Positions 13,641-27,272 of a stretch of DNA of 34,173 nucleotides are shown here, in pieces. Origin of the DNA: an uncultured Prevotellaceae bacterium (GTDB taxonomy: Bacteria > Bacteroidota > Bacteroidia > Bacteroidales > Bacteroidaceae). Location: contig ONSV01000013.1 of NCBI GenBank assembly GCA_900320585.1, forward strand, positions 1 through 34,173, given 5' to 3'. Each line of letters begins with the position of its first letter. Position 1 is the stretch's first letter. Under the pieces are notes generated by a model. It was not told the DNA's origin and searched no databases. It saw only the letters and a list, made by a program, of their open reading frames with translations. A program made the translations under genes and the position numbers.

Positions 13641-13671
13641 CAAAGGTACTCTTTTTTCGTCACCCCACAAA
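13641..13671 (-). promoter_or_regulatory. Promoter of the rpsF-rpsR-rplI operon
   Basis: Minus strand: TTTG at 13668-13671, a 19-base spacer, then TACCTTTG at 13641-13648. The fit to the Bacteroidales consensus is exact. The rpsF ATG is 45 bases downstream. Confidence 0.8.
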
Positions 13672-13713
13672 ATTTTTTTTGTTTTTTTGCGTCGGATATC
13701 GGATAATAGTGAT

Positions 13714-13721
13714 TACCTTTG
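13714..13721 (+). promoter_or_regulatory. -7 element upstream of the small membrane protein gene
   Basis: TACCTTTG at 13714-13721 matches the -7 consensus. The nearest TTTG (13686-13689) is 24 bases upstream, a little far. The ATG at 13782 is 60 bases downstream. It is back to back with the rpsF promoter. Confidence 0.5.
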
Positions 13722-16427: not shown

Positions 16428-16630
16428 ACCGCAAAAATAGGGAAAATCTTAACTGATTAACACATTTATGTTAATTAAAAACGAAAAATAAATAGTATTT
16501 AACAAAAATATATGTTTGATATTGATAATTATCAATTACATTTTACATATACTTACTTTGTGTTCCTTAAGTTGGCGTGCGACATTTGATATTTTTTTCT
16601 CTCGCCTTGCACTATCTTTGGCCTTCGGCC
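16428..16630. other. AT-rich region between rprX and the tandem repeat array
   Basis: About 200 bases, strongly AT-rich up to 16560, with no protein-like frame. A TATCTTTG box (rightward, 16613-16620) lies just before the first repeat and is followed by the 14-base palindrome CCTTCGGCCGAAGG (16622-16635). Confidence 0.5.
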
Positions 16631-16926
16631 GAAGGTACTCACGCTCGGAAATGCTCAAATAAATTTGGCATTTCGCTCACTTAATCGGACTTTGCCGCTG
16701 CGCGGCGAAGGTACTCACGCTCGGAAATGCTCAAATAAATTTGGCATTTCGCTCACTTAATCGAACTTTGCCGCTGCGCGGCGAAGGTACTCTCGTTCGG
16801 AAATGCTCAAATAAATTTGGCATTTCGCTCACTTAATCGTTCTTTGCCGCTGCGCGGCGAAGGTACTCTCGTTCGTAAATGCTCAAATAAATTTGGCATT
16901 TCGCTCACTTAATCGTACCTTTGCAC
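16631..16926 (+). repeat. Four copies of a 76-bp tandem repeat with nested hairpins and promoter-like elements
   Basis: Copies begin at 16631, 16707, 16783 and 16859 (the last is partial), each starting GAAGGTACTC. Copies 1 and 2 differ by one base; copies 3 and 4 differ from them at a few positions. Each full unit holds an AT-rich hairpin, GAAATGC-T-CAAAT-AA-ATTTG-GCATTTC, and a GC hairpin, CTTTGCCGC-TGC-GCGGCGAAG. Each also holds TTTG followed 19-20 bases later by an xxxCTTTG box. The box is degenerate in copies 1-3 (GGACTTTG, GAACTTTG, GTTCTTTG) and consensus in copy 4 (TACCTTTG). There are no unique spacers, so it is not CRISPR. Confidence 0.92.
16892..16923 (+). promoter_or_regulatory. 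Promoter of the nucleotidyltransferase gene, formed by repeat copy 4
   Basis: TTTG at 16892-16895, a 20-base spacer and TACCTTTG at 16916-16923. The ATG at 16931 is only 7 bases beyond the -7 box, so the transcript would be nearly leaderless. The TTTG lies in the right arm of the AT-rich hairpin of the repeat. Confidence 0.65.
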
Positions 16927-16930
16927 ACTG

Positions 16931-18010
16931 ATGGACAAGTACACGGCATATTTGGAGTTTTTACGCTGGAGTCTGGACGAAAGTGCCCCTCTTCCCTCAT
17001 CCGTCGACGATTTCGACTGGTCGGACTTGTATGTGTTTTCGCGCAAGCAGACCGTAGTGGCGACCATGTGGAAGGGTATAGAGCGTCTCGACCTTTCGCA
17101 CAAGCTATCTCTCACCGAGACAGAGGTCCTCACCTGGATGGCACGTATCAAGAAGGTTGAGCGCAGCAACAAGATGGTGTTTGAGAAAGCGGCATGGGTG
17201 TGGAACAATTTCCGCCGTGAGGGCTTCCGCTCTTGCCTGTTGAAGGGCCAGGGCAATGCCCTGCTCTACCCCACCCCCTACATGCGTACCCCTGGCGACA
17301 TCGACATCTGGGTGGAAGGCGGTGACGACAAGGTCATCGGCTATGTCAACTCCCTTCGTCCTGGCCGCAAGATTACCTATCACCACACCGAATTCCTGAA
17401 AACCGGCAAAGTTGCCGTAGAGGTTCACTACCGTCCATCGTGGATGAGCAATCCCTGGCATAACAAGCGTCTGCAGGCATGGTTTGTGGCGCATTCCGAG
17501 GAATGCTTCTCCAACGAGGCCAAAGGCTGGGGATTCTGCGTGCCCACATTTGAGTTCAACACCATTTTCCTTCTCTCGCATCTCTATTCCCATCTCATCC
17601 GTGAGGGTGTGGGACTACGCCATGTGGTGGACTACTACTACCTGTTGCGCAACAACCCTGGCAAACCACTACCCAGCGAGCAAGAACTGCGCTCACTGGG
17701 TCTGTGGCATGTGGCAGGGGCCTTGATGTGGCTATTGAATGAGGTTTTGGGCTTGCCCGACAACCTGTTGGTCTGTCCGCCCGACGAGCGCCGTGGCCGG
17801 GTGCTGCTCCACGAAATCATCAAAGGCGGCAACATGGGCAAATACGACGAGCGAGCCTTTGGTGGTCTGACAGAAGACAGCGTCCGCAACAACATCCGTG
17901 TTTCAACACGCGACATCCGGTTGCTGCTATACTTCCCCTCAGAGTGTCTGTGGGAGCCATGGTTCCGCGTCAAGCATTATTTCTGGCGCAAGAAACACCA
18001 ACCGAAATAA
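16931..18010 (+). CDS. Nucleotidyltransferase-fold protein (PF14907/NTP_transf_5-like)
   Basis: A 359-residue soluble protein. The segment CLLKGQGNALLYPTPY followed by MRTPGDIDIWVEG (residues 102-130) is typical of the uncharacterised nucleotidyltransferase family PF14907, with Asp123/Asp125 of GDIDIW as likely metal ligands and Lys105 before the conserved Gly. The remainder is mostly helical (FNTIFLLSHLYSHLIREGVGLRHVVDYYYLL). Family members often occur near polysaccharide or modified-peptide genes, but no such neighbour is seen within the flanking genes here. The substrate is unknown. The gene is transcribed from the end of the tandem repeat array and converges with fmt. The ATG at 16931 is chosen because the first residues look family-like and it follows the promoter. 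Confidence 0.85.
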   Translation: MDKYTAYLEFLRWSLDESAPLPSSVDDFDWSDLYVFSRKQTVVATMWKGIERLDLSHKLSLTETEVLTWMARIKKVERSNKMVFEKAAWVWNNFRREGFRSCLLKGQGNALLYPTPYMRTPGDIDIWVEGGDDKVIGYVNSLRPGRKITYHHTEFLKTGKVAVEVHYRPSWMSNPWHNKRLQAWFVAHSEECFSNEAKGWGFCVPTFEFNTIFLLSHLYSHLIREGVGLRHVVDYYYLLRNNPGKPLPSEQELRSLGLWHVAGALMWLLNEVLGLPDNLLVCPPDERRGRVLLHEIIKGGNMGKYDERAFGGLTEDSVRNNIRVSTRDIRLLLYFPSECLWEPWFRVKHYFWRKKHQPK

Positions 18011-26453: not shown

Positions 26454-26491
26454 CGAAAAACCCTAAGGATTCTTCTCCTTAGGGTTTTTCG
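26454..26491. terminator. Bidirectional terminator between prfC and the upxY-like gene
   Basis: A perfect 16-bp inverted repeat (26454-26469 with 26476-26491, 6-base loop) has GTTTTTCG on both strands. It serves prfC on the plus strand. On the minus strand it overlaps the last codons and the stop of the upxY-like gene, so the C-terminal residues KNPKEKNP are encoded within the terminator. Confidence 0.9.
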
Positions 26492-27068
26492 TCTCAATGG
26501 GCTGGCAGCACCATCGCGACACTTTGAGCATGACGCCCAGTCCCGGCACCTCCTTGAGCAGGAAATACTTGTGACTTTGCCTCACAAGGCGCCCTGACAG
26601 TCCCTTCAATGGTCCATGCTTCACCAAAACGGGAGTACCCACCTTCAGCCGAGACTCTTCTGAACTAAGGAACTTGCGCATCTCGATATCTGGATTGCAC
26701 ATGGCCTGGAACTCGTACATCTGCTTGGCCGGAATCTCATAATAATCGCGTGTTGTGCGGTCGCGAGTAATCACCGACATTTTGTATTGGCAACGGATGA
26801 GGAGTTCGGACATGGCCTGCTGCCTGATGGTTTTCTTCACGAAAATCAGGTTGCTCACCACGGGCCTCAACTTTCGCCTGTGTTTGCCATTCTCGTCCAT
26901 ATATTCGCGATACTGCATGGGAATGAAAGACTCCAATCCATTTTCCTTGAAATAGTCGGCCACTTTACTCAGGCTATTTGAGTAAAGGCGGATGGCATAC
27001 CAAGGTGTCAGGTCGCGCTCTTCGTCGATGGCAGCGCCCAAGAGTGGATTATCGTTTTTCTCGTCCAT
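26463..27068 (-). CDS. UpxY-like transcription antiterminator (NusG paralogue)
   Basis: A 201-residue NusG-type protein. The NGN domain covers about residues 20-120 (LTPWYAIRLYSNSLSKVADYF; VVSNLIFVKKT), and a KOW segment follows (VGTPVLVKHGPLKGLSGRLV). The divergence from housekeeping NusG and the length fit the UpxY family, which in Bacteroides lets RNA polymerase read through the leaders of capsule operons. Such genes are normally first in a capsule operon; here the gene stands alone between prfC and the trp operon. It starts 27 bases after a TAACTTTG box, one of three stacked upstream. The target operon is unknown; the rfbA module or a distant capsule locus is possible. Confidence 0.87.
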   Translation of the reverse strand: MDEKNDNPLLGAAIDEERDLTPWYAIRLYSNSLSKVADYFKENGLESFIPMQYREYMDENGKHRRKLRPVVSNLIFVKKTIRQQAMSELLIRCQYKMSVITRDRTTRDYYEIPAKQMYEFQAMCNPDIEMRKFLSSEESRLKVGTPVLVKHGPLKGLSGRLVRQSHKYFLLKEVPGLGVMLKVSRWCCQPIETKNPKEKNP

Positions 27069-27095: not shown

Positions 27096-27272
27096 CAAAG
27101 TTACGAAAAGTCGAGTGAAATGAGAAAGGAAAGCTTGCTTTTCTTTTCATTTCCGAGACGAAGTAACTTCGACGTTTACATCAAAGTTACGAAAAAACGA
27201 GAGCAGAGCAAAACAAACTCGTTTGTTTTTTATGCCGAGTGAAAGTAACTTCGCCTCACAGAGGCAAAGTTA
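27096..27272 (-). promoter_or_regulatory. Three stacked TAACTTTG promoter modules upstream of the upxY-like gene
   Basis: On the minus strand TAACTTTG occurs at 27096-27103, 27182-27189 and 27265-27272, spaced 86 and 83 bases apart, each inside the identical string TTTTCGTAACTTTG and each preceded by an inverted repeat. Only the middle one has a TTTG at the right distance (27209-27212, 19-base spacer). The proximal one is best placed for the gene. Confidence 0.6.
27182..27239 (-). repeat. Second copy of the 58-bp promoter-bearing repeat
   Basis: It matches 12266-12323 at 51 of 58 positions by direct comparison, in the same orientation. Both carry TTTG-N19-TAACTTTG and the CTCG/CGAG/CTCG blocks on the minus strand. 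Confidence 0.8.

Follow-up and report, generated by a model that had tools for sequence, protein, structure and literature searches.

Tandem palindromic promoter-like cassettes ahead of a nucleotidyltransferase gene in an uncultured Prevotellaceae bacterium

Ahead of a nucleotidyltransferase gene, the window (i.e., the whole stretch of 34,173 nucleotides that was analysed) carries an array of nested palindromes which can be read, with a probability of roughly 0.7, as a dispersed palindromic promoter cassette of ~65-75 bp amplified locally in tandem, similar to a mobile promoter, the last copy of which would promote a near-leaderless mRNA. The comparison of genomes establishes, at the level of the sequence, the structure of the cassette, its dispersal before unrelated genes and its turnover between sister species, as well as a -7 box that stays in place between these species and a partner arm that often still pairs with it.

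In the mechanism proposed here, the nucleotidyltransferase gene would be transcribed from the gene-proximal unit, which would serve as its housekeeping-sigma (-33/-7) promoter, into an mRNA with a leader just a few bases long. Slippage or recombination between the hairpin-rich repeats may have left the units upstream as by-products, and their boxes would often be broken because extra promoters are useless or harmful in that position. The cassettes would also be swapped between loci, by recombination or by transposition, with breaks near the arms of the outer stem.

Architecture of the array and of its relatives in the window

The tandem organization, given as four head-to-tail copies of 76 bp in an earlier sequence-only reading, is confirmed by Tandem Repeats Finder, which reports a period of 76, 3.9 copies and 96% matches at 16630-16924, with a score of 525 that is the top of its five rows in the window; units 1 and 2 differ, by eye, at a single base. 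Each copy combines an AT-rich hairpin (S2), which reads GAAATGC-TCAAATAAATTTG-GCATTTC and is found four times, with T as the first base in the fourth copy, and a GC-rich hairpin (H1), which links the neighbouring units and is found as GCCGCTGCGCGGC three times and as GGCCTTCGGCC once, in agreement with the two hairpins per copy that had been described. The core of S2 contains TAAATTTG, itself a match to TAnnTTTG, in every copy.

An outer stem (S1) is formed by CGAAGGTAC and GTACCTTTG, in which the -7 box TAnnTTTG pairs with an arm located ~50 bases upstream, and the right arm of this stem in unit 4 is the -7 box itself. The best fold of the last unit contains both S1 and S2, and the folding exceeds that of shuffled sequences both in unit 4 alone (z -3.4, 0/200) and in the whole array as single-stranded DNA with DNA parameters (z -7.0, 0/100).

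Table 1. Features of the array, its downstream gene and the related loci in the window
Feature	Position	Strand	Basis
Symmetric member CAAAGGTA..TACCTTTG, AT-rich centre, TAnnTTTG boxes on both strands	13641-13721	.	
Intact -7-type box TATCTTTG ahead of the first unit; also the 5' arm of the first GC-rich hairpin	16613-16620	+	sequence
GC-rich hairpin H1, type GGCCTTCGGCC	16613-16637	+	
Unit 1: left arm 16630-16638, inner stem S2 16648-16674, broken box GACTTTG	16630-16705	+	
H1 core joining units 1 and 2	16691-16709		
Unit 2: left arm 16706-16714, S2 16724-16750, broken box AACTTTG	16706-16781	+	
H1 core at the unit 2/unit 3 junction	16767-16785		
Unit 3: left arm 16782-16790, S2 16800-16826, broken box TTCTTTG	16782-16857	+	
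H1 core at the unit 3/unit 4 junction	16843-16861		
Unit 4, gene-proximal, nested palindrome: S1 left arm 16858-16866 (CGAAGGTAC), S2 16876-16902	16858-16923	+	
-33 element TTTG, within the 3' arm of S2	16892-16895	+	sequence
Intact -7 box TACCTTTG of the gene-proximal unit	16916-16923	+	sequence
Downstream gene: nucleotidyltransferase, 359 aa, PF14907 NTP_transf_5, E 3.1e-27	16931-18010	+	
Gene behind the second locus: NusG-like	26463-27068		
Second locus, same architecture: three intact TAACTTTG boxes, complementary arms CGAAGTTAC, other S2 sequences	27096-27272	-	

The Bacteroidota housekeeping-sigma promoter has a consensus which we take to be TTTG at -33 and TAnnTTTG at -7, with a spacing of ~19-21 bases, and unit 4 agrees with it in both boxes and in the 20-base spacer between them, a pair that the sequence-only reading had already placed at promoter spacing. 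Given that the ATG follows the last box by 7 bases, the mRNA should be almost leaderless under this assumed consensus, and transcription would be expected to start at ~16927-16930; the Pfam match of the gene bears out the assignment that had been made for it (Table 1). As had been noted, intact boxes are present in the last copy (TACCTTTG) and before the first (TATCTTTG), where the stretch GCCTTGCACTATCTTTGGCC is common to the window and the sister species RUG280, and the three inner sites have an altered TA; one C is also absent in each. The resemblance to an array of promoter units is supported.

The breakage of the inner boxes extends beyond this array. When the units were sorted blind to the box, it was found intact in 60/61 gene-proximal units and in 24/39 inner ones (Fisher p 1.2e-6), a contrast that this sorting weakens, and does not create, by over-calling chance hairpins as inner units, and from which the analysis excluded nine G017-type palindromes that lack the promoter spacer, together with one unit too close to a contig end. 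L052, the only 'final' unit with a broken box, has, by eye, a hairpin and an arm behind it. On the other hand, the inner boxes of several arrays are intact, including those of the second array in the window (27096-27272), which makes the loss of the box common and not a rule; in G308, a genome of another genus whose loci were picked for intact boxes, the inner boxes are often TCTG. The description of these promoters as decaying does not hold as a rule, as the second array shows.

A search of the window for a box with a complementary upstream arm returned five matches at three loci, the shuffled windows having a mean of 0.05 and a maximum of 2. At the second locus, this combination was found at 27096-27182 on the minus strand. 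The third, symmetric member (13641-13721) has the S6 gene (rpsF) on its minus side and only an 80-aa ORF without a Pfam match on its plus side, and it looks like a two-way promoter of the cassette family. These two loci, together with the outer stem S1, the TAnnTTTG match inside the S2 core and the dispersal described below, are absent from the sequence-only reading.

Dispersal of the cassette family and the genes behind it

A search of the unit across the genus, which had been suggested, found the S2 pattern at 12 places in this genome (<=3 mismatches) and in 36 of the 150 genomes searched, this one included, with 0 matches of the reversed-pattern control in either case. A second pattern, made up of the spacer and the box (CTCRCTTAWTCGTANYTTTG), is present at <=2 mismatches in 34 copies here and in 41 in RUG280 (0 for the reversed pattern), and at one mismatch in 63/201 genomes of the family, from 9/30 genera, this genome included. 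It has 119 matches at one mismatch in G308, listed as 100% complete, and is found outside the family in 3/117 genomes, with one match each. This patchy abundance among genera fits either a mobile or a strongly lineage-bound repeat.

No match to the cassette was found in phage records, and a single one among 72,556 plasmid records (L248). It lies at ~43678-43733 of OY725997.1, a record without annotation that is labelled as a plasmid of Phocaeicola massiliensis, in which one unit with the exact S2 of the window stands before a short ORF.

A different dispersed palindrome, which has the core CTCAAATAAATTTGG in common with the cassette, is present in G017 and G012 (L013, L014, L043-L049), with the arms GCAATG/GCATTGC, an outer CGTTTTC..GAAAACG and no promoter box; L014 and L045 have downstream sequence in common and look like one place in two genomes. 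Most of the genomes used are draft assemblies, this one (G000) being 87.8% complete, and in three of its contigs (C209, C239 and C186) units lie within ~140 bases of the ends, which is what short-read assemblies broken at such repeats would give.

The box stands at a fixed offset in 77 of the 93 units classed as final in a first sorting, a class that includes six with another hairpin behind them by eye (L015, L027, L033, L040, L052 and L100). The relation to genes was assessed with units chosen by S2 alone, of which 72 have an intact box that is not followed by another unit, 2 of them too near a contig end and 70 usable. Within this set, an ATG-ORF lies ahead within 300 nt in 69/70 and within 60 nt in 61/70, and the latter distance was observed for 24% of random positions of the same loci and in 5/63 cases when looking upstream.

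Of 21 units of this genome, 20 have a downstream ORF, and 19 of the proteins were scanned (L161 left out), 18 of them with a Pfam match at E 1e-6, of which the one of L001 is below the family cut-off. The products include a Glu/Gln-type and a Trp/Tyr-type tRNA ligase, gyrase A, RlmN-type and pseudouridine enzymes, transporters and hydrolases. Relative to L148, L001 of this genome contains an additional 23-base direct repeat, which brings a second -7 box (GCGCATTTATTCGTACTTTTG) immediately ahead of the gene.

The ten closest homologues of the nucleotidyltransferase are 59-66% identical to it, and in the 9/9 that have the start in the contig (L108 being without it) TAnnTTTG is located 4-8 nt before the ATG, with distances taken by eye. 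An array of another cassette was seen by eye before the gene at L103, L105, L106 and L109, and none was visible at L102, L104, L107, L110 and L111. Among six loci from a named collection (L132-L137), the box is present in four, and it is absent from L132 and L137, where the gene follows closely behind another coding-looking stretch; the sequence upstream of the gene in L135 and L136 is the one found in L110 and L111.

Turnover between sister species and pairing of the stems

The nucleotidyltransferase of RUG280 (contig ONGG01000007.1, L131/G299) is 94% identical as a protein, and its gene is preceded by two units, compared with the four of the window. The first of these matches unit 3 of the window, including the same broken box (GTTCTTTG), and window units 1 and 2 have no counterpart there, with the result that the recent expansion proposed for them looks like a lineage-specific gain, or else a loss in the relative. 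The last unit of RUG280 is of another subfamily, with an S2 of GAAAGTGCAAAA..TTTTGCACTTTC, and it has the box TATCTTTG and the left arm CGAAGATAC where the window has TACCTTTG and CGAAGGTAC, i.e., the change of the box is matched by a change of the opposite arm. Given that units closely similar to it are also present at L169 in this genome and at L190 in RUG280, the difference looks like the exchange of a whole unit.

The number of copies, as counted by S2 stems, also differs between the sister species at L007/L150 (3 vs 1), at L197/L180 (1 vs 3) and at L193/L175 (1 vs 2, plus one box without a stem). The box dinucleotide and the left arm differ together at L101, L006 and L200 among 24 orthologous pairs, a set in which L203/L215, L198/L181 and L194/L177 are poorly anchored at the box and L196/L182 has no recognised box on the RUG280 side. 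At L153, L012, L151 and L169, the identity is 0.79-0.88 over the 60 bases after the box and 0.39-0.45 over the 60 before it, these being global alignments in which ~0.4 means unrelated sequence. The upstream cassette of L191 also differs by eye, its comparison with L213 having no computed upstream identity and a unit 59 bases from the contig end, and at L169/L212 a stretch similar to the 3' arm of S2 is common and displaced, which means that the upstream part is not wholly foreign. No inverted unit was found among the 24 pairs, all of which were oriented by their box.

At L210 and L212 of RUG280, two genes on different contigs have the stretch ATGTCGCAAACTTAGAGTATCTTTGCA in common where this genome has the palindromic cassette, and we read this as another promoter stretch that may be re-used.

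An exchange of cassettes with breaks near the arms of the outer stem would mean that the family behaves as a mobile promoter, and ordinary recombination among the repeats can produce the same pattern. Clean empty sites with a target duplication were not found, and the search for transposases of the Y1 family tied none to the cassette; at six further orthologous loci, the sites without a unit have unrelated upstream sequence, so that a duplication is unreadable there.

A repeat of the REPIN or MITE type is another candidate, in which a trans-acting transposase would read the outer-stem arms as terminal inverted repeats and the promoter would be a side effect, and we regard it as a possible, if unlikely, source of the family. 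The outer stem does have the form of such repeats (CGAAnnTAC..GTAnnTTTG, with a complementary dinucleotide in the units that have the left arm), and this candidate would agree with the 119-120 copies reached per genome, which are patchy among the genera of the family and almost lacking outside it, with the subfamilies common to several loci, with the breaks near the arms where the unit differs between sister species, and with the exact S2 core on the Phocaeicola record. The differing arm sequences found in one genome are, however, unusual for ends bound by a single enzyme, and random insertion without selection would not result in 69/70 gene-proximal copies facing an ORF.

The movement by RAYT transposases was rejected here, as the Y1 family (PF01797) has 0 matches in this genome and in RUG280. 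It is absent from G035 too, and present in 6/7 other unit-bearing genomes and in 5/14 control genomes; no cassette unit was found at the 4 Y1 loci read, of 13 found. In the excerpts of PMC8049555 and PMC3733652, REPINs and REP-BIMEs are moved by these transposases and are palindromic, dispersed and locally amplified, as the cassettes are. Unlike them, the cassette has no GTAG-tagged foot noticeable by eye, its position is tied to gene starts and its two sister genomes lack Y1.

The pairing of the outer stem persists through much of this sequence change. In the intact-box units of this genome and of RUG280, all of them picked by spacer and box, the left arm is recognisable in 16/31 and 20/34, and the box dinucleotide is complementary to it in 15/16 (shuffle mean 3.8, max 11) and 18/20 (shuffle mean 4.5, max 12), respectively. 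Genus-wide, the left arm is complementary in 36/53 units (shuffle mean 9.5, max 20, 10,000 shuffles) and not so in 17/53, and the pairing is weaker in G308 (11/18, shuffle mean 5.7, reached in 3/10,000 shuffles); as the units within one genome are related, these shuffles overstate their independence.

The fully paired arms of S2 are GAAAAGC/GCTTTTC in 29 units, GAAATGC/GCATTTC in 18 and GAAATAC/GTATTTC in 16, in addition to others. The hairpin exceeds composition-preserving shuffles (p<=0.05) in 45/63 units chosen by spacer and box, and in 38/96 control TAnnTTTG sites, which may include TAAATTTG within S2 and other cassette families. Two repeated units at L145/L160 show concerted differences in their S2 arms between the species, with GAAAACA..TGTTTTC in the former and GAAATAC..GCATTTC in the latter (RUG280), which has one mismatch in S2 and one in S1, repeated in both left arms and in the S2 stems.

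A purely mutational origin without function, in which template switching during replication perfects imperfect palindromes and amplifies them and the promoters merely supply the 3' arms, may be considered rather improbable for this family. It would account for the arms of many sequences that stay complementary, for the concerted difference at L145/L160, and for the same-core palindromes without a promoter box in G017, but it leaves unexplained both the near-identical cassettes at unlinked loci and a left arm that mostly keeps CG where full pairing needs CA. The arms begin with CG, i.e., with a T-G mismatch, in 58/71 cases and with CA in 4/71. As CG turns the reverse box TTTG into TTCG, the left arm would be a poor reverse promoter, an effect drawn from few cases, such as the symmetric member at 13641-13721 and L172, a full palindrome with a CA arm between divergent genes.

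A more speculative possibility, which we hold to be improbable in its full form, is that these are DNA-structure promoters, a class within this part of the Bacteroidaceae that would require the -33 element in one stem and the -7 element in another, either in an extruded cruciform or in a folded single strand. Supercoiling or strand opening would set their use, the stems would be kept by paired changes as their sequences turn over, the reverse -7 would be kept disabled (CGAA for CAAA), and essential genes such as gyrA would depend on mobile cassettes.

Remaining alternatives, known systems and biological meaning

The sequence-only reading had also proposed a switch of phase or level, in which slippage between the 76-bp units would alter the number of promoters and turn the gene up or down. 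The different copy numbers of the sister species, at this and at the other three loci, and the near-identity of units 1 and 2 are in line with this proposal, which nevertheless appears very improbable. Both species have an intact box adjoining the gene, with four units as with two, which leaves the switch unsupported; furthermore, the inner boxes are broken here, the 9/9 closer homologues, including those without any array, keep TAnnTTTG, and the downstream genes are of many kinds, housekeeping enzymes among them.

Even less probable is a palindrome to which a regulator binds, with the downstream genes as its regulon. The inner stem overlaps the -33 element, a frequent position of repressors and activators, and one subfamily has the constant core CAAATAAATTTG; this core was, however, the search key, so that its constancy comes from the selection of the units, and S2 is diverse and yet usually paired in units chosen by spacer and box. 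The regulon was discarded, as the 19 scanned downstream proteins have no common theme.

The least probable is an RNA element, the stems of which would form in RNA transcribed from a promoter further upstream and would govern termination, processing or translation: the array folds strongly (with DNA parameters) and G-U pairs would fit the outer stem, but the units lie upstream of the expected start, the Rfam scan of the window gave 0 matches above the gathering score, and the mismatches of S2 (22 antisense-wobble, 3 sense-wobble and 21 other over 101 units) are opposed in kind to those of S1, which speaks against one folded transcript and favours no transcript strand.

The reading as an amplified, mobile-promoter-like cassette has its nearest counterparts in two known systems, and the cassette may work like both of them, by functional likeness. 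Mobile promoters, or promoter propagation, were reportedly described by Matus-Garcia, Nijveen and van Passel in 2012-2014 as near-identical promoter stretches before unrelated genes, and this distribution within one genome is what the cassette resembles. It differs from those reported cases in its nested palindromes, in the tandem arrays with often broken inner copies, and in a break at the -7 box, upstream of which the sister species differ.

The Correia elements of Neisseria (CREE/NEMIS), as presented in the excerpt of PMC2649163, are short inverted-repeat elements of >120 copies per genome which can form promoters at their ends and which differ between strains at some places. The likeness is that of dispersed inverted-repeat promoter elements and is functional only, no relation of sequence being claimed. 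In the cassette, by contrast, the box is itself an arm of the outer stem, the arms vary by copy and yet often pair, tandem arrays are formed and no target duplication was found.

Within the Bacteroidota, the BrickBuilt MITE of Porphyromonas gingivalis is also intergenic, with tandem repeats and promoters, and the excerpt of PMC4596501 mentions a 23-nt repeat between leader and tail sequences and transposase-like hits; the nested -33/-7 palindrome is a feature of the cassette, and none is described for BrickBuilt in that excerpt. Promoters prone to cruciforms, such as hupA of E. coli and the 77-bp inverted repeat before the capsule operon of P. gingivalis (PMC3969353, in the part available), have a palindrome over or adjoining the promoter as well, and in that part they are single loci, unlike a family found before many genes. 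Finally, the cassette departs from the invertible Bacteroidales promoter, as 69/70 gene-proximal units have the ORF on the promoter's side instead of standing in two orientations. In the open-licence literature, no title or abstract was found that describes this element.

If the reading as a mobile-promoter-like cassette is right, short-read assemblies of such genomes may break or collapse at the units, and ordinary as well as essential genes of a gut lineage would have exchangeable cassettes as promoters, whose turnover between sister species outpaces that of the genes, with the break point at the -7 box. The sister genomes already offer matched pairs, in which the same gene is found behind different cassettes. 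Promoter replacement would leave a natural record in this way, and the pairs would make it possible to test directly if DNA palindromes play a part in transcription in the Bacteroidota.
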